Below, in pieces: positions 38,581 to 55,982 of a stretch of DNA of 64,000 nt (positions are counted from its first letter, which is position 1; each line of letters begins with the position of its first letter). Both the position numbers and the translations under genes were made by a program. The notes beneath the pieces were generated by a model that saw nothing but the letters and a program-made list of their open reading frames with translations, made no database searches and was not told the origin of the DNA. Source of the DNA: Cohnella faecalis (GTDB taxonomy: Bacteria; Bacillota; Bacilli; Paenibacillales; Paenibacillaceae); the NCBI RefSeq assembly GCF_003570905.1, contig NZ_QXJM01000063.1, positions 62,001-126,000 on the forward strand, given 5' to 3'.

Positions 38581-38994
38581 TCAGGAAAGCTTACGCGAAA
38601 CCCGGTGCCGGAACTGCTTGTATTGAAAATAGATAGTGCACCCAACGCAGTAGCCGAGCAGCGCGGCGCTTGCCGCAGCCAGCAGCATGAGAGCGGCGGA
38701 ATAGCCGGCGGCTGTCCAGCCCACTAATAGAAAGAGTAAGGACACCGTTAAAAACAAGACGGCAAGCAAGTTGTTGAATCGGGTTAATTCTGCCGCTTGC
38801 GTAGGCCGATTGCTCGTTTGAAGAAATGGCTTGGCTATTCGAACGAAAAGATTCCAACGGCCGTTCGTCGCCAGTCCGACGACCTGAACAAGCCATAATG
38901 CGGCAAGCAGCCATGGCTGAAACAGGAGGGAGATCAGCACGAGTAAGACGATGCCCGTCTGGTTCGCTTTGACATATGCAAGGGGAATATTCAT
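38581..38994 (-). CDS. DUF4395-like membrane protein
   Basis: 137 residues. It starts MNIPLAYVKANQTGIVLLVL and has four hydrophobic stretches in two pairs, with RWNLFVRIAKPFLQTSNRPT between them. This layout fits DUF4395, a family of unknown function sometimes linked to thiol or rhodanese chemistry. The start follows AAAGAGGTG on the minus strand, and a good promoter lies upstream. Confidence 0.65.
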   Translation of the reverse strand: MNIPLAYVKANQTGIVLLVLISLLFQPWLLAALWLVQVVGLATNGRWNLFVRIAKPFLQTSNRPTQAAELTRFNNLLAVLFLTVSLLFLLVGWTAAGYSAALMLLAAASAALLGYCVGCTIYFQYKQFRHRVSRKLS

Positions 38995-39062: not shown

Positions 39063-39118
39063 CAAAATAACGTCTGTTTGCCCTCATTGAAAGCAGAAAG
39101 ATTTCTTCGGAATCAAAT

Positions 39119-39882
39119 CACAATTCCGGCTTGGAGTCGGGAATGCGTAGGAGTAATGAAAATTTGCACCACAATTCTTGCTCGGAGTCGGGAGTGCGTC
39201 GGAGTAGTGAAGATTTGCGTCACAATTCCGGCTCGGAGTCGGGAATGGGTTGGAGTAGTGAAGGTTTACGTCACAATTCCGGCTCGGAGTCGGTAATGCG
39301 TAGGAGTAGTGAAGATTTGCGTCACAATTCCGGCTCGGAGTCGGGAGTGCGTCGGAGTAGTGAAGATTTGCGTCACAATTCCGGCACGGAGTTGGTAATG
39401 CGTCGGAGTAGTGAAGATTTGCGTCACAATTCCGGCACGGAGTTGGTAATGCGTCGGAGTAGTGAAGATTTGCGTCACAATTCCGGCTCGGAGTCGGGAA
39501 TGGGTCGGAGTAGTGAAGATTTGCGTCACAATTCCGGCACGGAGTCGGTAATGCGTCGGAGTAGTGAAGATTTGCGTCACAATTCCGGCACGGAGTTGGT
39601 AATGCGTCGGAGTAGTGAAGATTTGCGTCACAATTCCGGCTCGGAGTCGGGAATGGGTTGGAGTAGTGAAGATTTGCGTCACATTCCGGCTCGGAGTCGG
39701 GAATGCGTAGGAGTAGTGAAGATTTGCGTCACAATTCCGGCTCGGAGTCGGGAATGCGTAGGAGTAGTGAAGATTTGCGTCACAATTCCAGCTCGGAGTC
39801 GGGAATGGGTTGGAGTAGTGAAGATTTGCGTCACAATTCCGGCTCGGAGTCGGGAATGGGTTGGAGTAGTGATGTTTTGTGT
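39119..39882. repeat. Tandem array of 51-bp repeats (15 copies)
   Basis: Fifteen head-to-tail units begin at 39119 and then every 51 bases: 39170, 39221, 39272, up to 39832. Each opens CACAATTCCGGCTCGGAGTC and closes AGTAGTGAAGATTTGCGT. Unit 12 (39680) is 50 bases, having lost one A. A decayed sixteenth start (CACAACACAGG) follows at 39883. Variation is concentrated mid-unit (GGGAATGCGTAGG, GGTAATGCGTCGG, GGGAATGGGTTGG) and neighbouring units share variants, as expected of unequal exchange. Three of six frames stay open only because 51 divides by three; no ribosome site or signal is present, so I do not call it coding. Confidence 0.95.
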
Positions 39883-40034
39883 CACAACACAGGAGCACCT
39901 TATATAAAGGCTAGTAAATCCTTAATGTAAAATATTACCTGTTGCATTGATTGTTCGAAATGTGATAAGTTATTTCTCGCCCCTCCGAGAGGAAAGGGCA
40001 AGAACGAAATGCCAAACGCAAATGAAAAAAGCGG

Positions 40035-40063
40035 TTGACATTGTCGCTCGAAGCTGATAAAGT
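40035..40063 (+). promoter_or_regulatory. rRNA operon promoter
   Basis: TTGACA (40035-40040), 17-base spacer, TAAAGT (40058-40063), roughly 180 bases before mature 16S. It lies about 150 bases after the end of the 51-bp array. Confidence 0.7.
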
Positions 40064-40244: not shown

Positions 40245-44983
<4,739 letters not shown>

Positions 44984-45009
44984 AACAAACACAGGTAAGA
45001 CGATGTTAA

Positions 45010-45940: not shown

Positions 45941-46675
45941 TTAGCCGATAAATTCTTGTACCCATTCGCCGTTGTAATAAGCGACGCCGATGGTTGTGAA
46001 GTTAGCGTTCAGAATGTTCGCTTTATGCCCGGCGCTGTTCATCCACGCGGTCATAACCTCTTGGGGAGTACGCTGGCCTTTGGCGATGTTCTCGCCGGCG
46101 TAGCGGTAGCTTATTCCGTACGTTTTCATCATGTCGAACGGCGAGCCGTACGTCGGGGAAGTATGGTCGAAATAGTTTTTATTGTACATGTCCTTGGCTT
46201 TATCGAGCGCCATGGCCGTCAGCTTCGCGTTCGATTGAAGCGGCTTAAGACCGGCTTTTGCCCGTTCCTGATTAACCAAAGTTACGACTTGCTGCGCATA
46301 AGCGGAAGCGGAGCTGTCGGCAGCGGTGCTGCCGTTGCTGCCCGTGCTTGTCGAAGGTGTAGACGGCTTCGTTGTCGCTGGCTTGGAAGGCTGAGCTGCC
46401 GGCTTGGAAGGTTGAGTTACCGGTTTGGAAGGCTGAGCGGTTTGACCGGAGCCTGTGCCTGTGCCGGTTGTTGCGTTCGAAGGAGCTTTGACTTGAATAT
46501 ATTGTTGAATGAACGCGTTCCAATCAAAGCCGTTGGCTGATGTCGCTAATTGGTTCCAATCGTAAGCTTTCACTTGAACGACCGAAGCCGAAGCGGCGCC
46601 TGCTCCTGCCGGTACTGCGATCGCCAACGTCAACGCGCCTACTGCAAGGGACTTTTTCAACTTGTTGTTCTTCAT
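45941..46675 (-). CDS. Secreted CAP/SCP-domain protein (YkwD-like) under c-di-AMP riboswitch
   Basis: 244 residues. Signal peptide MKNNKLKKSLAVGALTLAIA, cleaved near ASA-SV. A Ser/Pro/Thr-rich repeat linker (QPSKPVTQPSKPAAQPSKP) precedes a C-terminal CAP domain with VVTLVNQERAKAGLKPL, FDHTSPTYGSPFDMM, AGENIAKGQ and AWMNSAGHKANIL. The YkwD group is exported in Bacilli and their spores. ATG 46675 follows GAGGAGG. The leader contains a ydaO-type riboswitch, a class that often controls cell-wall proteins, so c-di-AMP would tune its production. Confidence 0.88.
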   Translation of the reverse strand: MKNNKLKKSLAVGALTLAIAVPAGAGAASASVVQVKAYDWNQLATSANGFDWNAFIQQYIQVKAPSNATTGTGTGSGQTAQPSKPVTQPSKPAAQPSKPATTKPSTPSTSTGSNGSTAADSSASAYAQQVVTLVNQERAKAGLKPLQSNAKLTAMALDKAKDMYNKNYFDHTSPTYGSPFDMMKTYGISYRYAGENIAKGQRTPQEVMTAWMNSAGHKANILNANFTTIGVAYYNGEWVQEFIG

Positions 46676-46794
46676 GAATGAATTCCTCCTCTTTGGTAAC
46701 GACTCGGGCACGATCTCTAAGCTGCGATCCTGCCGAATCGTTGTCGATATAAACGCTTGTCGTCATCCGATGGATGTCGCTAGCCATTTATACT

Positions 46795-47145: not shown

Positions 47146-47330
47146 GTTGTCGAACGTTGTCGAATTTTACCAGCGGGTCTAGAAGGCGCTAAAGGAAAGG
47201 CACAACGATGTCCTTTGATATTCGTGCGTTTCCACCGAGCAAATGGGAGAAACGAGCCTTCGGAATCGACGGGTTCAATAGGCTCTAATAATGAAGGTTG
47301 GAACAGTCAAACGAATGGAGGAAACCGTCA

Positions 47331-50300
47331 GTGCGCAATCATTGGATTTCAGGATTGGCCAAGCTGTTGATCGCCGCGTTGCTGCTGCAAAGCATACCTC
47401 TTGTGTATGGAAGCGGAAATGCAGCTCATGCAGAGGGAGCGGAACAAGTATCAGACGATTTGACGGATTATACGTGGAAGAGGGCCGATAGCGGCACCTT
47501 TAAACCGGCTGCGAGGCAAGCTGCAAGCATGGCTTATGATGAAGCTGCCGGGAATGTCGTATTGTTCGGCGGCGAGAGCAGTGTCTTGTTGAACGACACT
47601 TGGCTTTGGGATGGCAGCGAGCAAACCTGGCAGGAGGCGGCAGTCTCTTCAACTAAGCCGGTTGCGCGCAAATATGCGGTAACGGCTTTCGACCCTGTTA
47701 GCCAGAAAGTGCTTCTGTTCGGAGGCGAAGGCTCCGCAGGAGTTCTTAACGACACATGGTTATGGAACGGGCAGACGGCTTCATGGGAGAAATTAACCCC
47801 TGCCATATCTCCTTCGCAGCGAGCCGGTGCGCAATTGGCTTACGACGGAGAGCATCTGATCCTGTTCGGAGGATATAAAATAAGCGGAGGAACGAAGACC
47901 TCTCTCGGTGATACTTGGCTGTGGGACGGGACGAATTGGACGGATGTAACGCCTACGGATCCGGGCGCGTCTCCGCCAGCCGCATATAACGGACAGATGA
48001 CTTTTGACGGGCAATCGGCCGTGTTGTATGGCGGCATTACCGGCAACGTAACGGTCAACAACGGCACGACCGACGTTACAATGAAAGACAGCTCGCCGAA
48101 GCTGTGGCACTGGAACGCCGATACGTTGGCATGGAGCTCGACGGATGGGCCGGAGTCATTCGGACGTTGGGGCCATACGATGGCCTACGACGGTCGCCGG
48201 GTTGTGTTCTTCAGCGGAGCGCGCGATTACCTTCATTCCTTTAATGGCACCTTGATAACGGACTTGAAGATGCCTTCCTCCGTCTATCCGTATCCGAGAA
48301 CCGGCCTGGCCTACGGCTTGAAAGGCGGGGTTTGGGAAGGGTATCCTCAAGTCGGCTCGTCAGGAACCGGGTTTCAAGACGATGTCGGCTACCCGGGTCA
48401 GCTTCAGCTTTATCCGAATCAGCGTCCGTTCCCGCTCACTAATGCGAGCATGGCGTTCGACGGCACCAATTTTGTTATTTTCGGCGGGCATCGCGATGCG
48501 GTCGACGTATGGGACAAACATCAAATCCAGGGCGGGCACAAGCTCGAAACGATTCCCGCCGGAGTAATGAATGAAACCTGGGTGTTCGGATACACGCCGC
48601 CATCGCCTCCGGGGATCAAGATGGTGAGCGAACCGATCATTAATCTGGATCCGGCACATCTCGACGATACCGTTAGTGTAGTAACTAGCGTCTACTCTCT
48701 AGGCGGCAAACCGGTCACTTCACGCGGGGTCGAGTATCGCCCGTATACGGAAGCTGGCAGTGCAGACTGGATTGCCATGCCTTATTCGGCAGATCCGCAA
48801 GCGACAGGCTCATTTACTGTTACGTTGACCGGTCTGACTTGGCAGCAGGAATATGAAGTTCGGAGTTATGCCGTCAACGAAATCGGCACCAGCTATACGC
48901 CTGTCGAGCGCTTTGTGCTTGAAGACGATCCATCGATGGAAGAGCCTGACGTTCGGTTCGATCGAATCGGTCCGTCCGTGCTGCATGTGAAAGACAAGAA
49001 GCGGATTGTCGCGGTCGGGGAAGGCGTGACCAATCTTCTGCGCAAGCCGCTCAACCAAATTCACTATTATTTGAAAAATGGCGGCAGCATTACTCCGCTG
49101 AACTACAACATTTTGAGCAAAAACCAGTTGGAATTGACTTGGGAGGCCGATTTGCCGCCAGGCTCCTATGAAGTACATCTGGAGCATGACACTTACCAAG
49201 ATTACGTGTATGTGGACGACCTTGGGACAGAAGAGTGGAATGAAGGACTGGCGCTAATTAACGTCGACTTCTACAAGCCGCGCAACTTCGATCGGATTGA
49301 CGTGCCAAGCACGGCATCGGGGAATGAACAGACCAGCCTGTGGCTGCAAGGTCCGTTCACCGAGACGCCTTCCAAGCCGAAGGAGTACGTATTGAACGAC
49401 ACCTCCGAGGTTGTCACGATCAACGGAAACGTCTTGTTCAAGGGCAGCAGACTTGTCGTGGACAAGACCGATTCGGCCAAAACCGTCATTACCGGCGAGG
49501 GACGGTTGTATGTCAACAGCGGCAGCTCGCAAGGGGCAAGCTTGCCCTATACGCTGCATGACGGACCGTTCGCATTCGATTCGGATGACTTCTCCCTCAT
49601 CCTGTCCGGCAACAGCGCTGCTGATTATATGGGCATAGATATGCCTTTCAAGGCCAATAAGCTTACCTTTGCCAAGGACGGCTTGAATTTGTCCGGCAAT
49701 CTGGAGGTTGGATTTACGGCCGGAAGTCAGAAAATATCCAGCTCCATTCCGATAAGCGGGGTGCAATATCGGAATAGCCGTTTCGAGCTGAGCGGCACTT
49801 ACGCGATGAACAAGAGCTTTAAGGTAGGACCGCTTGATGTCAGCAACACGCAGTTCGTTATTGACAGTCGAGTGCCTTATATTAGCGTTAAAGGCACAGG
49901 CAAATTGCCTAACGACAGCCTTGGTTTCGATCTTCTCATGAAGGTCAAGCAGGGGCGTCTTGACGAGATCGGCTTCGGAATGTACAGCAAGACGAAGCTT
50001 GCCTCGACAGGACTTCAAGTCAATTATTTGTTCGGCAATGTGAACAATCTGGCAGGGAAGACACAAATTCCTCAGCGGCTTGGCGTGACGGGCTCTGTGG
50101 CGGACATCATCGTACCCGAGCTTAAGCATCCGTCGGTCAGCTACAAGTTCAACCTGCTCGGAACGGATTCGATCGCTGTCGATTTAACCAATTACGGTTT
50201 TGATGCCACCGGCATCGAATATTATTACTGGCTGCCGGTGAACAACATGAGCATGCAGACCGTCGTTAATCCGACTGTCGCCGGTATTCCGGGCTTCACT

Positions 50301-53300
50301 TCGCCAGGCTTTCTGGCGAAGGGCGATATTAATGTATTCGATACGATCAAAGGCGTCATCGCTGCGTATTCCTTCAACAAAAAGGGATACAGCGGCGTGC
50401 TCAAAGGAACCGTATATGTGCCTAAAGGAATCCCGCGCATCGGCGGAGTGACGGTCCGGAATGTCGTTCTTAGCGTGAATGAAAAAGGCGTATCCGGATT
50501 GTTCAAGCACAACGGCATCAATGCAAGAGTGACCTATACGTTCCAAAACAACACGATCTTGTTCGAAGTAGAGGCCGAACCGCCGAAGAAATCATGGTGG
50601 GAAAAAGGGCTCGACCTCTATAACAGCGTCAACGACTTCTTCGAAAAGACCGAGCCATTGGGGGATCTGCTGGAGGAAATATTCCTCTTTAATCCGAACA
50701 CCTCTTCGTCTTTCAACATTGCGGCTGCAGACGATTGGATGAAATACTTTGATTTCACCCAGTTCAACGTTGCCAACAATGTCGCATCGACGACCGGCGA
50801 ATTGAAAAAAGTGTACGAGCTGACGCCGGTCAGGCTGGCGTTCCAGCCGGAGGATACGACGGAGACTGAGGTTAGCGCGCGGATTGCCGACGGACAGCTG
50901 ACAGCGGTTGACCGGACGCCGCTTGTGACTACGAAGGCAGACGCGGCAGCCAACGGACAGATCAGCTCCGTCTTCCCGGTCAAGCGCGCTTATGAGGCGC
51001 TTATCGCCATAAACGGCGACCAACGGTCAGCCGTATTGAAGGCTTCTTCCGCCGAAAAGCCGACTGTTGAAAAGACGGTATTGACGGAAGTTGTCTATGA
51101 CGCTGACCGGGATACTACCTACATGCGCGCATCGCTGTATGCAGGAAGCTGGAAGCTGATTACGGGGGAAAGCGTCCGAATCAGCGTGAATGAATTGGTA
51201 TTCGCAAAAAAATCGTTGACGCTTGAGCAATTGGCTGGCGTATGGGCGCAAACCGCTGACCGTTCGGTTACGTCTCTGAATATAGAAGAAGCGGGCGTCT
51301 ACGCATTGAACATCGATGCTGGATCGGACGAAGTTGTGCTCTACAAGCCGGATGGACGGCCTTATGATCTGCAAGGTTCGCAAAACCAGGCCGGTTGGAA
51401 CTCCTTCCTGGATGCGGACGACAATCGGCACGTACTGTTGAACGCGATTGAACCGGGAACGTGGCTGATCATTGCGGACGAGAGCCCGAAGGCGGCGATC
51501 AACCGCGTACCGGCGAAAACCACGACGGACGAGCTAAAGCAATGGGTACAGGATAGAGCCTATCCGACGTTTTTTGAGATGAGCCGCACGACCAATGGAC
51601 AGGCCATTGTGGAAATTTACGGAGCGGACGAAGAGACGAAGCTTTATATGCCTAGCGGCGAGCTGTACAGCTTGCAGCCCGATCCGAATTTGAGCGGGCT
51701 GAACGTTGCATACGACGAATCGCAGAACAAGCTGACCGTATGGCTCGACAAGGTTGAATTGAAAGGTCAATGGAAAGTGGTGAGCGGCGGCTTTACCAGC
51801 TTCGCGGCATACAAAACGAGCAGGAAGTTCAAGTCCATTAAGCCGCTGTTGGACGAAGGACGATATTCCAAGTATTTCGAATTGGCGGAGAAAGGCGACT
51901 ATATGTTGTCTGTCAGCGGCGGCAATACCGATACGGTCATCTATGCGCCGAACGGGAAGCCTTATACGCTGAGTTTTGAGGATCAGAGCGGCAACGCCTA
52001 CTTGCAGCCGGCGGCCGATCGAACGTCTAGCCCGTCTGCCGGAGGAGATCCGCTGAATCAGACTCAGATCGTTACTCCGAACCCTGTGCAGGACGGACGG
52101 GACATGCTCTATGTGTCGCTGCTTAATGCGCCTGCGGGCAAGTGGCGGGTACAGAACGGCACCAAGGTTGATTTGCAAATTCAGAAGCTTATTCCGTCGC
52201 CTGATGTCAAAGCTTCTGCCGACTCGATTGCCGGTGCTAACAATCGTATTCGGGTGACATGGTCAACGGAGAATGCCGCTGCCGATACCGAAGTGGCGAT
52301 TATGCTGACCGGCAGCAAAGACGCGTATGTCGGAGAAGTTCTTGCGGAAGGTCTGGCTGCTGCGGGCAGCACGGTCATCGACATTCCTGAAATGATGATA
52401 CCGGGCACTTACTATGTGACGGTAGCGGCGACAAGCGTGGATAAGGCGCCGACGTACGCCATTGTGGAAGAACCGGTGGTCGTATCGGCTCCATATTCGC
52501 TTAACGCGCCGGCCCAGCTTAGCGTGCAGTCGACCGGCAACGGAGAAGTGTCGCTGAAATTCTCCTCTGTGTCCGGGCAAGTGGAGCGCTACCGGGTTTG
52601 GGTCGGCGAAGGAGCGGACGTTCAACCTGCGACGCCGGTTCTGGATTTCGCTCCGGAGCCTGGCGCTTCTCAGCAAGCGGTAATCTCCGGCCTTCGGGTT
52701 AACGAGGACTATACGATTGCGGTTTCGGCGATCGGCGAGCAAGAGGGGCGGCTTGTGTTGAGCCCGCTATCCGACAACGTCAGCTTGACGCTTCCGGCTC
52801 CCCAGCCGGCCGCGCTGACCGTATCGGTCGATGCGGGATCGAATTTGGTCGCCAATCGCACTTACAAGAGTTACGACGGAAGCGACATACAGCTTGCGCT
52901 GACAGCGGCCGACCAAGCGAAGCTTGATGTAACGACGAATCAGGCGGCCGATCTGACCTTCACGATCAACGGGCACACTTTTGACAGCGTGCACGTCGCG
53001 GCGAACGGATCTTATTCATTTGATTTGAACGAGCGCCTTGAAACCAGCGTGCTGGAGGAGCAAGAATACAAGGTGACGATCGAGGCGGTCAATGCGCGCG
53101 GCGACCGCAGCGTCGAGTACCGCAGATTGTTCGTCGATCGCACGGCGCCGCTGCTGATCGCATCTGGCGGCGATGACGCAACGGGCGCGCCTATCTCGCT
53201 CAACGGTACAATTGACACCTCCGGCAAAGTGCTGATTGTGGGGCAAACGGAAGTCGGAGCGAAGCTGGATATTAACGGAGTCATCGTGCCTCTTGACGAT

Positions 53301-55982
53301 GCTGGCCGTTTTGTCTACTATGCTCCGCTCGCATGGGATAGCAGCATAGATCGGATTCTGATCACGATAAAGGCTTCCGACGAGGCAGGCAATACGACTG
53401 CGTACGGCTTCGAGGTGCTGAAGGCTGTTGCGGGAGCAGATTTGACCTATCCGGGCGACTTGGCTGCGCTGACAACGGTGGGTGCGACGATGAGCGCGCC
53501 GTATCAGTTCGGCACAGTCGATTATGAAACCGTGGCCTACTTGAACAAAGTTCGCGTCTATGCGGCACCTATGGTTTCGTCCTCTGTCGTATCGATAGAA
53601 GGAACGCCGCTGCCGACTAGCGGTTATGTGGAAGTCGCGGTACCGGATGCCGGGCGAGCTGTTCAAATTCGCGTGAAGCCTGCCGGCGGCCTGTCGGAGC
53701 AGCTATACACATTGAATATTGAAACCGGCTCAAGCGCGGCGCTGCTAAGCACATTGACACTGAAAACGCAATCGGGCGAAGCGGTTGCTGCGCAGCCTTT
53801 TACAGGGACAGAAGAAACTTATAACGTATATGTAGACAACTCGGTGGATGGGGTAACCTTGACGCCTGACGCCTTGATGGCCGGATCAGTGATTAGAGTC
53901 AAGGGGCAGGATGTGCAGAACGGACAGCCATCCCAGACCATTCCCTTGCAAGTGGATGACAATCCAATACCTGTAACCGTCGTCTCGCCGGACGGATTGA
54001 CGACGCGCAGCTACCAGGTAGTCGTCTCGCGGATGCCAAGCGGCAATTCCGAGCTGCAGCAATTGGGCATTGCTACAGCCGGCGTTTCGCTGACGCCGGG
54101 CTTTGACCCTAATGTGCTTCAATACCAAGTGCTTGTACCACACGACACTACAGCCTTCGCGCTGCAGCCTGTTGCGCAACAGGCGGATGCCGCCGTCCTC
54201 GTCAACGGCCAAGAATCGAACGGCAGCACGGTGACTATTCCGTTCGGCGGAGAAAGCTTGTCTGTCGCGATCGAGATTCGCGCACCAGACGACAGCGAGC
54301 GTAAGTATACTTTGTCCGTTGTGCGCCAGAAGGGTGCGCCTGCGCAAGCGCCATTGCTTACGAGCCTATCGGCGAGCACAGCGCTGGACGGCGAATTCAA
54401 TCCTTATCAATTTTTCTATGGCACCAAGGGGCAGACCGAAAACTATCTGACAACGATTACGGCGGTTGCGGGCGATCCGCAAGCAATCGTAACGGTAAAG
54501 GGTGTTTCGTTGCAGGGCGGCGGTAAATTCATGCCTAGCCTCAGTCTAGGGGAAAATACCATCGTCGTAAGAGTGGAATCCGCCGATCTGACCGCTTCGC
54601 GGACCTACTCCATCAATATTAAGCGCGTGAGCAAACCCGAGGAGAACTTGCGTCATTCGACGATTACCGGCAGCGCAGGGGATTGGTCGGATCAGATCGA
54701 GATCGTCAGAACTCGTACGCAAGAGGGAACTGCGGTCGATACAGTGAGACTGGATGCGGAAAAGGCGCGCCATATTTTGGACAAAGCCAAACAGAACAAA
54801 GACAGCATTGCGCGAATCTACGTGACTGATATCCCTGACGATCCGGCAGATGAGCGTATGGTAAAACTCAGCGCCGATTCCTTGAGCTTGCTTGCGGATG
54901 GCGGTATGTCGTTGCAAATCGTACTGCCCGAAGCGGTGATCGATTTGCCGGCAGCTTCGCTGCAACAGCTCGGCAAAGAAGGACAAGACGCTTACTTCCG
55001 GATTATTCCGGTTATCGCCGATGATGAGCGGGGCGAAGTGACATCACGTGTTCTCGCTTCTGACTTGGTGCAGCAAGCGGCAGGAGGCCAGCCTGCTTCC
55101 GTGATCGGGCATCCGGTCAAGATTGAAACGAATTACTCCGGGTTCAAGACGAAGCTTCTGTTCCCGCTGACGGACTTGAGGCTGCCGGCAGATAAGGCAG
55201 CAGCTAAGCAACTGCTGTCGGAACTGGCTGTTTATATTGAGCACAGCGACGGCGAGAAAGTGCTTGCGCCAGGAGAAATTCGTTATGACGCGGAAGGCAA
55301 CGTAACCGGCATTGCGATTGAAATCAATAAATTCAGCACATTTGCCATCGTTCGGACGAATGCGGCAAATACAGTGCTTGAGCCTTATATGTCCGGTTAC
55401 CCGGACGGCACCTTCCGTCCGTCGCAATCGATCAAGCGCGCGGAATTGGCAGCTATTCTTCACCGTCTAGGCGCAGAAGGTACTTTGTCGGCGCAAGCGG
55501 CGGGGTATGCGGATGTTGCTGCAAAACATTGGGCAGCGGAGGCAATCGCCTACATGAAGCGCTCCGGGCTAATGCTCGGCGATAACAAAGGGCTGTTCCG
55601 TCCGGAAGACGCCGTTACCCGCGCGGAGATGGCCAGCATCGTCGCCCGACTGCTTCCGGCATCCGCAGCCAATCAAGCGTCAGCAGGAGCATACAGCGAT
55701 ACGCATGGACATTGGGCTGCAGATGCGATCAAGAAAGCTGCGCAAGCGAGCATTCTGCAAGGATATCCGGATGGAACTTTCCGACCGGATAACAAGCTGA
55801 CTCGCGCGGAAGCGGTACAAATACTAAATAAATTGTTCCAACGACCTACAGCCGGCGTACCTTCGTCCAGCTGGCTGGATGTACCGCTAAGCCACTGGGC
55901 CATCCGGGAGATTGAGTCGGCTTCCGGCACAGTGGAGGTGTCGTCCGATGGCACTGTGCTTGTAGAACCCGCGATCCATTAG
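47331..55982 (+). CDS. Giant SLH-anchored surface protein with Kelch, Fn3 and cadherin-like domains
   Basis: 2883 residues. GTG 47331 follows GGAGG and opens a signal peptide (RNHWISGLAKLLIAALLLQS). Residues ~45-420 hold about six Kelch repeats (LFGGESSVLLNDTWLWDG, LFGGEGSAGVLNDTWLW). A long beta-rich middle includes Fn3-like domains near 430-520 and 1720-1820. At ~2130-2430 there are about three cadherin-like sandwich repeats (LSTLTLKTQ, LQQLGIATAG, LTSLSASTAL). Three SLH domains close the protein (~2684-2870), with RAEL, TRAEM and TRAEA motifs and GYPDGTFRP twice. SLH domains bind pyruvylated wall polymer, so it is surface-bound. Substrate or partner unknown; domain edges are approximate. 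Confidence 0.9.
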   Translation: MRNHWISGLAKLLIAALLLQSIPLVYGSGNAAHAEGAEQVSDDLTDYTWKRADSGTFKPAARQAASMAYDEAAGNVVLFGGESSVLLNDTWLWDGSEQTWQEAAVSSTKPVARKYAVTAFDPVSQKVLLFGGEGSAGVLNDTWLWNGQTASWEKLTPAISPSQRAGAQLAYDGEHLILFGGYKISGGTKTSLGDTWLWDGTNWTDVTPTDPGASPPAAYNGQMTFDGQSAVLYGGITGNVTVNNGTTDVTMKDSSPKLWHWNADTLAWSSTDGPESFGRWGHTMAYDGRRVVFFSGARDYLHSFNGTLITDLKMPSSVYPYPRTGLAYGLKGGVWEGYPQVGSSGTGFQDDVGYPGQLQLYPNQRPFPLTNASMAFDGTNFVIFGGHRDAVDVWDKHQIQGGHKLETIPAGVMNETWVFGYTPPSPPGIKMVSEPIINLDPAHLDDTVSVVTSVYSLGGKPVTSRGVEYRPYTEAGSADWIAMPYSADPQATGSFTVTLTGLTWQQEYEVRSYAVNEIGTSYTPVERFVLEDDPSMEEPDVRFDRIGPSVLHVKDKKRIVAVGEGVTNLLRKPLNQIHYYLKNGGSITPLNYNILSKNQLELTWEADLPPGSYEVHLEHDTYQDYVYVDDLGTEEWNEGLALINVDFYKPRNFDRIDVPSTASGNEQTSLWLQGPFTETPSKPKEYVLNDTSEVVTINGNVLFKGSRLVVDKTDSAKTVITGEGRLYVNSGSSQGASLPYTLHDGPFAFDSDDFSLILSGNSAADYMGIDMPFKANKLTFAKDGLNLSGNLEVGFTAGSQKISSSIPISGVQYRNSRFELSGTYAMNKSFKVGPLDVSNTQFVIDSRVPYISVKGTGKLPNDSLGFDLLMKVKQGRLDEIGFGMYSKTKLASTGLQVNYLFGNVNNLAGKTQIPQRLGVTGSVADIIVPELKHPSVSYKFNLLGTDSIAVDLTNYGFDATGIEYYYWLPVNNMSMQTVVNPTVAGIPGFTSPGFLAKGDINVFDTIKGVIAAYSFNKKGYSGVLKGTVYVPKGIPRIGGVTVRNVVLSVNEKGVSGLFKHNGINARVTYTFQNNTILFEVEAEPPKKSWWEKGLDLYNSVNDFFEKTEPLGDLLEEIFLFNPNTSSSFNIAAADDWMKYFDFTQFNVANNVASTTGELKKVYELTPVRLAFQPEDTTETEVSARIADGQLTAVDRTPLVTTKADAAANGQISSVFPVKRAYEALIAINGDQRSAVLKASSAEKPTVEKTVLTEVVYDADRDTTYMRASLYAGSWKLITGESVRISVNELVFAKKSLTLEQLAGVWAQTADRSVTSLNIEEAGVYALNIDAGSDEVVLYKPDGRPYDLQGSQNQAGWNSFLDADDNRHVLLNAIEPGTWLIIADESPKAAINRVPAKTTTDELKQWVQDRAYPTFFEMSRTTNGQAIVEIYGADEETKLYMPSGELYSLQPDPNLSGLNVAYDESQNKLTVWLDKVELKGQWKVVSGGFTSFAAYKTSRKFKSIKPLLDEGRYSKYFELAEKGDYMLSVSGGNTDTVIYAPNGKPYTLSFEDQSGNAYLQPAADRTSSPSAGGDPLNQTQIVTPNPVQDGRDMLYVSLLNAPAGKWRVQNGTKVDLQIQKLIPSPDVKASADSIAGANNRIRVTWSTENAAADTEVAIMLTGSKDAYVGEVLAEGLAAAGSTVIDIPEMMIPGTYYVTVAATSVDKAPTYAIVEEPVVVSAPYSLNAPAQLSVQSTGNGEVSLKFSSVSGQVERYRVWVGEGADVQPATPVLDFAPEPGASQQAVISGLRVNEDYTIAVSAIGEQEGRLVLSPLSDNVSLTLPAPQPAALTVSVDAGSNLVANRTYKSYDGSDIQLALTAADQAKLDVTTNQAADLTFTINGHTFDSVHVAANGSYSFDLNERLETSVLEEQEYKVTIEAVNARGDRSVEYRRLFVDRTAPLLIASGGDDATGAPISLNGTIDTSGKVLIVGQTEVGAKLDINGVIVPLDDAGRFVYYAPLAWDSSIDRILITIKASDEAGNTTAYGFEVLKAVAGADLTYPGDLAALTTVGATMSAPYQFGTVDYETVAYLNKVRVYAAPMVSSSVVSIEGTPLPTSGYVEVAVPDAGRAVQIRVKPAGGLSEQLYTLNIETGSSAALLSTLTLKTQSGEAVAAQPFTGTEETYNVYVDNSVDGVTLTPDALMAGSVIRVKGQDVQNGQPSQTIPLQVDDNPIPVTVVSPDGLTTRSYQVVVSRMPSGNSELQQLGIATAGVSLTPGFDPNVLQYQVLVPHDTTAFALQPVAQQADAAVLVNGQESNGSTVTIPFGGESLSVAIEIRAPDDSERKYTLSVVRQKGAPAQAPLLTSLSASTALDGEFNPYQFFYGTKGQTENYLTTITAVAGDPQAIVTVKGVSLQGGGKFMPSLSLGENTIVVRVESADLTASRTYSINIKRVSKPEENLRHSTITGSAGDWSDQIEIVRTRTQEGTAVDTVRLDAEKARHILDKAKQNKDSIARIYVTDIPDDPADERMVKLSADSLSLLADGGMSLQIVLPEAVIDLPAASLQQLGKEGQDAYFRIIPVIADDERGEVTSRVLASDLVQQAAGGQPASVIGHPVKIETNYSGFKTKLLFPLTDLRLPADKAAAKQLLSELAVYIEHSDGEKVLAPGEIRYDAEGNVTGIAIEINKFSTFAIVRTNAANTVLEPYMSGYPDGTFRPSQSIKRAELAAILHRLGAEGTLSAQAAGYADVAAKHWAAEAIAYMKRSGLMLGDNKGLFRPEDAVTRAEMASIVARLLPASAANQASAGAYSDTHGHWAADAIKKAAQASILQGYPDGTFRPDNKLTRAEAVQILNKLFQRPTAGVPSSSWLDVPLSHWAIREIESASGTVEVSSDGTVLVEPAIH

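Follow-up and report, generated by a model that had tools for sequence, protein, structure and literature searches.

The window, a 64,000-nucleotide stretch of the Cohnella faecalis genome, contains a tandem array in the divergent gap between a DUF4395 gene on the minus strand (38581–38994; Pfam PF14340, E 1e-26), which lies outside the satellite, and a plus-strand rRNA operon with 16S rRNA at 40246–41799 and 23S rRNA at 42055–44984. The window 16S shares 96% identity with its counterpart in Cohnella caldifontis (positions 193–1554) and 92% with that of Paenibacillus herberti. The array itself (39118–39887, plus strand) has a period of 51 bp, with 15.1 copies, 92% matches and a score of 1253 in TRF. 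The unit listing gives 14 of 15 units at 51 bases and one at 50 bases, so that the 15-unit array of the original prediction, including its shorter unit, is real. On the DUF4395 side, the array begins 124 bases upstream of the gene's start codon (38994). Its end was expected about 150 bases before a putative rRNA promoter, and 148 bases indeed separate it from the TTGACA of a promoter-like site (TTGACA-17-TAAAGT, 40035–40063, plus strand); this site is weak, with one found against a mean of 1.4 in shuffles. Elsewhere in the window, a c-di-AMP riboswitch (RF00379, 46781–46917, minus strand) lies upstream of a CAP-domain protein gene (45941–46711, minus strand), and a large surface protein is the probable product of a 2894-aa ORF (47298–55982, plus strand) that contains Kelch, fn3, Cadherin-like and SLH domains.

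Within the array, the first two units and the last one are more diverged than the interior units, and a two-unit core-word pattern occurs 8 times in the window, against a mean of 0.00 over 100 shuffles. The proposal that neighbouring units share variants finds weak support: adjacent-unit identity is 0.926 against 0.912 in permuted orders when all 15 units are taken (p 0.049), whereas for interior units only, p rises to 0.14 and the top identity is at lag 3. Likewise, the inverted ATTCC/GGAAT ends proposed for some units are found in those with GGGAAT, but the element common to other arrays is TGTGA...CACAA. We agree that a 51-bp unit corresponds to about five helical turns, and a repeated DNA-binding site, listed among the original possibilities, is kept as such.

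The proximity of the array to the rRNA genes raises the possibility that it is a regulatory element of the operon, such as a set of upstream activator sites, an insulator or a fork barrier. The position in a divergent gap, so close to the promoter-like site, is what speaks for such a role. However, a 51-bp array is present at only one of the eight rRNA operons of this genome; about 1.6 kb upstream was examined for each, and no such array was found at the other seven. In addition, 15 other genomes of the genus have the same DUF4395–16S junction without a 51-bp array. In these, the DUF4395–16S distance is 321–686 bp (median 427), as compared to 1257 bp here, or 487 bp minus the array; 14 further junction loci, with no 16S start within the stretch examined, fall outside the 15. 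Finally, 12 sister arrays sit elsewhere in the genome. An rRNA-specific element was therefore rejected on the evidence of the seven operons and the 15 relatives, and we regard this reading as very unlikely; the special link with the rRNA operon that had been suggested is thus unsupported. Since the junction lacks the array in all 15 relatives, the position beside the rRNA genes is, within the genomes sampled, specific to this lineage; it looks accidental.

Arrays of period 50–53 and their gene context

Arrays of this kind are frequent in the genome. In the 1.6 Mb scanned, 64 arrays of at least three copies have a period of 50–53, and extrapolating this number to the 6.43-Mb genome would give roughly 250. 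A sequence-blind scan of the first 1.2 Mb of the contig C33 (period of at least 15, at least 2.5 copies; overlapping tandem-repeat rows merged to one per place before counting) identified 83 tandem arrays, 54 of which have a period of 51 (50 arrays) or 52 (4 arrays). In the next 0.4 Mb of the contig, the period is 50–53 in 10 of 14 tandem arrays. Under the same thresholds, 0.4 Mb of another genome of the genus (G016) showed a period of 51 in 7 of 19. Arrays of 50–52 bp are also present in 100-kb samples of three further genomes (G003, G010 and G024), while in a 100-kb sample from another family (G037) 51-bp rows occur only inside a 112-bp array. A different period is seen in two places of C33, at about 317–324 kb, where 21-bp tandem arrays have about 12 copies; 20–21 is the other constant repeat period reported for Bacillus (PMC8161180).

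The 64 arrays fall into families of different sequence: alpha (30 arrays), beta (12), gamma (9) and delta (5), with 8 unassigned. A similarity search with the window unit against its own genome, as had been suggested, returned seven further matches besides the window array. A model of the unit gave at least 84 matches at E values up to 1, among the best 150 of 2723 candidates, corresponding by our count to 16 further places. The same suggestion applied to relatives was negative: similarity gave no match in the 59 other genomes searched, which include 36 of the genus, and the unit model (R1) found none at E up to 0.01 among the best 150 candidates in each of these 36.

None of the 64 arrays lies inside a gene predicted with our home-made gene finder. 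For context counts, arrays with fewer than three copies were left out and predicted ORFs lying mostly within arrays were removed (three in the first set). In the first 1.2 Mb of C33, 18 arrays are in convergent gaps, 32 in co-directional gaps and 4 in divergent gaps, against a background of 106, 433 and 127 among the 666 gaps of at least 30 bp. Convergent gaps are thus enriched (odds ratio 2.98, p 0.0008) and divergent gaps depleted (odds ratio 0.32, p 0.019). A similar distribution was observed in G016, with 4, 2 and 0 of 6 arrays (p 0.006). The convergent bias was, however, not replicated in the next 0.4 Mb of C33 (2, 7 and 1 of 10 arrays, p 0.64), and the arrays sampled in G003, G010 and G024 (1, 2 and 4, respectively) are all co-directional. 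Within gaps of this type, arrays lie closer to the 3' end of the upstream gene in 27 of 32 cases of the first 1.2 Mb and then in 4 of 7 in the replication set; the corresponding numbers are 2 of 2 in G016, 1 of 1 in G003, 2 of 2 in G010 and 2 of 4 in G024. The window array, being in a divergent gap, is therefore atypically placed for its class.

The dyad core of the arrays

The unit of the window array contains a decayed dyad whose ideal form is TTGTGACG-N5-CGTCACAA, and this core is common to 12 other arrays of otherwise different sequence. One unit carries, for example, CGGAGTAGTGAAG-ATTTG-CGTCACAATTCCG (39200–39230, plus strand), and along the array the core returns at intervals of about 51 bases; CGTC occurs inside the core. 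Fourteen consensi from 13 arrays, one of them split in two by a transposase gene, match CGGAGTTGTGACG-N5-CGTCACAACTCCG at 18–23 of 26 positions, and none of 300 shuffles exceeds 17; the pattern was composed from these same arrays, which had been gathered by similarity to the window unit. As a check on this self-written pattern, 13 consensi were anchored on CACAATTCCG alone. TGTGA is then found 15 bases upstream with a mean match of 4.69 out of 5, and the next best distance does not exceed 2.54.

At the level of families, dyad symmetry exceeds all 300 column permutations in alpha (30 arrays) and delta (14 rows), and the same test revealed no dyad in beta (12) or gamma (9). The delta value is optimistic because its rows were phased with the palindromic pattern; moreover, the rows are not all independent, since adjacent arrays could belong to a single one. 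Taken singly, 10 of 74 arrays have a significant dyad, as compared to 1 of 24 among arrays whose period is different, with a median p of 0.45. A palindrome in every array was therefore rejected: since so few consensi are significant singly, the dyad is a decayed symmetry of families and no rule for every array. We also observed a PF00872 (Mutator-type) transposase gene (L050:2573–3763, C33 about 593.6–594.8 kb) interrupting a delta array, with 8.4 and 7.4 copies on either side.

Searching the genome collection for CACAATTCCG twice at a spacing of 50–53 retrieved 18 stretches, 14 of which contain an array or duplication of about 50–52 bp. At this spacing the core word is present in 7 of 394 genomes of the family, namely the genome studied here, 4 of the 36 others of the genus and 2 of the 357 elsewhere, and its reversed form in none of the 394. 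In the four genomes of the genus, the array letters are identical to loci of C. caldifontis, C. silvisoli, Cohnella sp. SGD-V74 and Cohnella sp. REN36. The alpha word has no match in the 36 other genus genomes; the beta word has one, its reversed control giving 3 matches in one other genome.

In six consensi from Cohnella and P. herberti (five species), a spacer of 5, the one found in the delta unit here, gives the best match between the arms, with one tie at spacer 10. Of the 18 inner pairs, three per consensus, 16 are complementary, with letters that differ between species, and the whole 8-base arms match at 4–7 of 8 positions. On the other hand, the dyad at spacer 5 is not clear in 7 of the 13 foreign consensi that have the core word, namely those of P. 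sacheonensis, Bacillus, Neobacillus, a Bacteroidales MAG and three from a Thermoclostridium MAG; over all 13, the inner pairs are complementary in 24 of 39 cases. Other dyads were also noted. The 51-bp arrays of G016 (C1:1.0–1.4 Mb, L133–L152) have a dyad core of their own, ATAACGGCAC-CCC-GTGCCGTTAT, and the core ATCGTCGCA-NNN-TGCGAC(G/T)AT is found in 51-bp arrays of both G016 and G024 (L204).

Candidate roles of the arrays

The array could in principle encode a repetitive protein, and open frames of 258 aa and 210 aa do span it, with Pfam matches that stay below the cut-off (best E 0.0007). Yet no Pfam family exceeds its cut-off for the window frames, and open frames are hardly more frequent than expected: four of the six consensus frames are open here, and across the 53 arrays whose consensus is 51 bp long the mean is 3.7 open frames, as compared to 3.3 after shuffling. 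Related arrays of period 52, moreover, could not keep one frame. With open-frame counts near those of shuffles and no Pfam family above its cut-off, the protein-coding array was rejected, in agreement with the earlier view that coding is unlikely; the window array is very probably noncoding, and a protein product is extremely improbable.

A second reading is that the array is transcribed, its hairpins acting as a small RNA, a sponge or a stabiliser of mRNA ends. For the plus strand of the window array, the folding energy is -332.7 kcal/mol and the mean of 20 shuffles -269.9 (z -9.2), while the minus strand gives -187.9 (z -1.8); in addition, 52-nt arrays of B. coagulans have been reported as transcribed (PMC8161180, PMC8625621). 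Several observations nevertheless argue against RNA. Five single units from five arrays fold with z values of only -1.6, -3.2, -1.7, -0.5 and -0.9. Among 39 co-directional arrays, 16 fold more stably as the sense strand (Wilcoxon p 0.28). Terminator-like hairpins precede 15 of 25 co-directional arrays; for comparison, they occur in 53 of the 163 gaps that lack an array and in 20 of 132 cases when the wrong strand is scanned, the stretches compared differing in length. Orientation relative to transcription gives no consistent signal, with the same strand in 22 of 31 cases of the discovery set and then in 1 of 3 of the replication set. The consensus structure pairs 77.5% of cells, versus at most 60.0% for slid versions, although this structure was drawn from the consensus itself. 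RNAalifold found no common structure, and, within this genome, changes affecting both sides of a pair do not occur more often than in shuffles, which fits a fixed-sequence site for a dimer better than a free hairpin. Overall, lacking a covariation excess, an RNAalifold structure and a sense/antisense stability bias, the RNA hairpin is unsupported; an RNA role is not favoured, and we consider it improbable.

Taken together, half-sites that are largely constant within the genome, complementary changes between species and a period of about five turns would best fit sites for a dimeric protein. Our tentative best explanation, to which we give slightly less than an even chance, is thus a noncoding satellite carrying DNA-level sites for a putative dimeric protein. 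The core would be recognised on double-stranded DNA by a putative homodimer whose specificity may drift between lineages. With a spacing of 51–52 bp, or about five helical turns, consecutive dimers could sit on the same helix face, and this would keep the period fixed while the linker changes. Copies may be gained and homogenised locally via slippage or unequal recombination, and arrays would be tolerated mainly downstream of genes. The arrays would then probably act where transcription units end, as local nucleoprotein or topology elements. The copy in front of this rRNA operon would be atypically placed and presumably has no dedicated rRNA role. In a more specific and rather doubtful version, the arrays would be phased multi-site operators of a putative homodimeric chromosome protein that polymerises along one helix face at transcription-unit ends, with a constant dyad centre and co-drifting half-sites.

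Sites for a dimeric protein have to be weighed against a selfish or neutral satellite, which is nearly as likely and which we hold to be a serious possibility. Here, the arrays would have no host function and would spread and expand through a putative amplification machinery that itself sets the 51–52 step, and selection would only clear genes and promoters. Such a satellite is consistent with a position that is not conserved, the 15 relatives having the junction without the array, with an alpha word confined to this genome within the genus, and with the exclusion of all 64 arrays from predicted genes. It also agrees with the placement of co-directional arrays near upstream 3' ends (27 of 32, then 4 of 7), where insertions should harm least, and with the PF00872 transposase gene that interrupts one array. 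However, neutrality alone leaves two observations unexplained: a single period is seen across different sequences and species, and the arms change in a complementary manner on either side of a spacer fixed at 5 bases. Should the dyad geometry be borne out, what measures 51–52 bases becomes directly testable in several species with different predicted half-sites. If it fails, the array is an ordinary satellite and its rRNA adjacency is not to be over-read.

Comparison with known repeats

CRISPR arrays also consist of tandem, partly palindromic repeats, but in the window array the whole 51-bp unit is repeated, without unique spacers. BOX and MITE-like small repeats form dispersed intergenic families; compared by arrangement only, the arrays described here resemble them in their dispersal between genes and differ in their constant-period tandem layout.

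A closer parallel is offered by REP/BIME elements, intergenic palindromes located mainly between convergent and co-directional genes and in some cases in tandem (PMC3733652, PMC1525189). Our arrays share their intergenic location, their palindromic character and, in the discovery set, a similar gap preference. The gene-downstream location of REP/BIME is shown by our arrays in the discovery set, while the window array is in a divergent gap. In REP/BIME elements, a palindrome of 20–40 bp has a GTAG or CGTC tag at its foot, and the elements bind gyrase, IHF or Pol I; our arrays, unlike them, are arranged head-to-tail at a constant 51 bp. The Y1_Tnp (RAYT) transposase PF01797 has no match in this genome (a draft of 65 contigs), whereas the control was positive in 5 of 14 genomes, and a REP/RAYT system was rejected on this ground.

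The window array belongs to a published class, the noncoding 51–53-nt satellites of Bacillales. These tandem repeats ("52 nt") were described in Bacillus and other Firmicutes by Subirana and Messeguer in 2021 and are particularly abundant in Paenibacillus (PMC8161180). They are characterised by numerous arrays in each genome, a constant length and a variable sequence, several families, and short characteristic words often accompanied by their reverse; a nucleoid protein or a small RNA was suggested, and the satellites were described without a mechanism (PMC8161180). The period of 51 lies within the 51–53 range, and the 14 of 15 units of equal length compare with thresholds of at least four copies and at least 60% equal length (PMC8161180). 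At the genome scale, the alpha, beta, gamma and delta families likewise have equal length and different sequence, and the arrays are noncoding, with none of the 64 in predicted genes. TGTGA and (T)CACAA, at a fixed distance in the unit, correspond to the words and their reverse. The published 52-nt consensi themselves contain a significant inverted repeat in 14 of 24 cases, 12 of these 14 with an odd spacer; the 24 were taken from the 27 of Table 1 of PMC8161180 after three apparent near copies had been dropped, and related families among them are not independent. Our literature search, directed at the arrays themselves, found no publication on intergenic 51-bp tandem repeats of Cohnella. The arrays differ from the published satellites in their mode, which is 51 here, versus 52 there; in addition, PMC8161180 stresses species-specific sequence, whereas here the core word and the spacer geometry recur in other Cohnella species. 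Our analysis adds to that description a shared core whose geometry is fixed across Cohnella species, and a measured position relative to gene ends.
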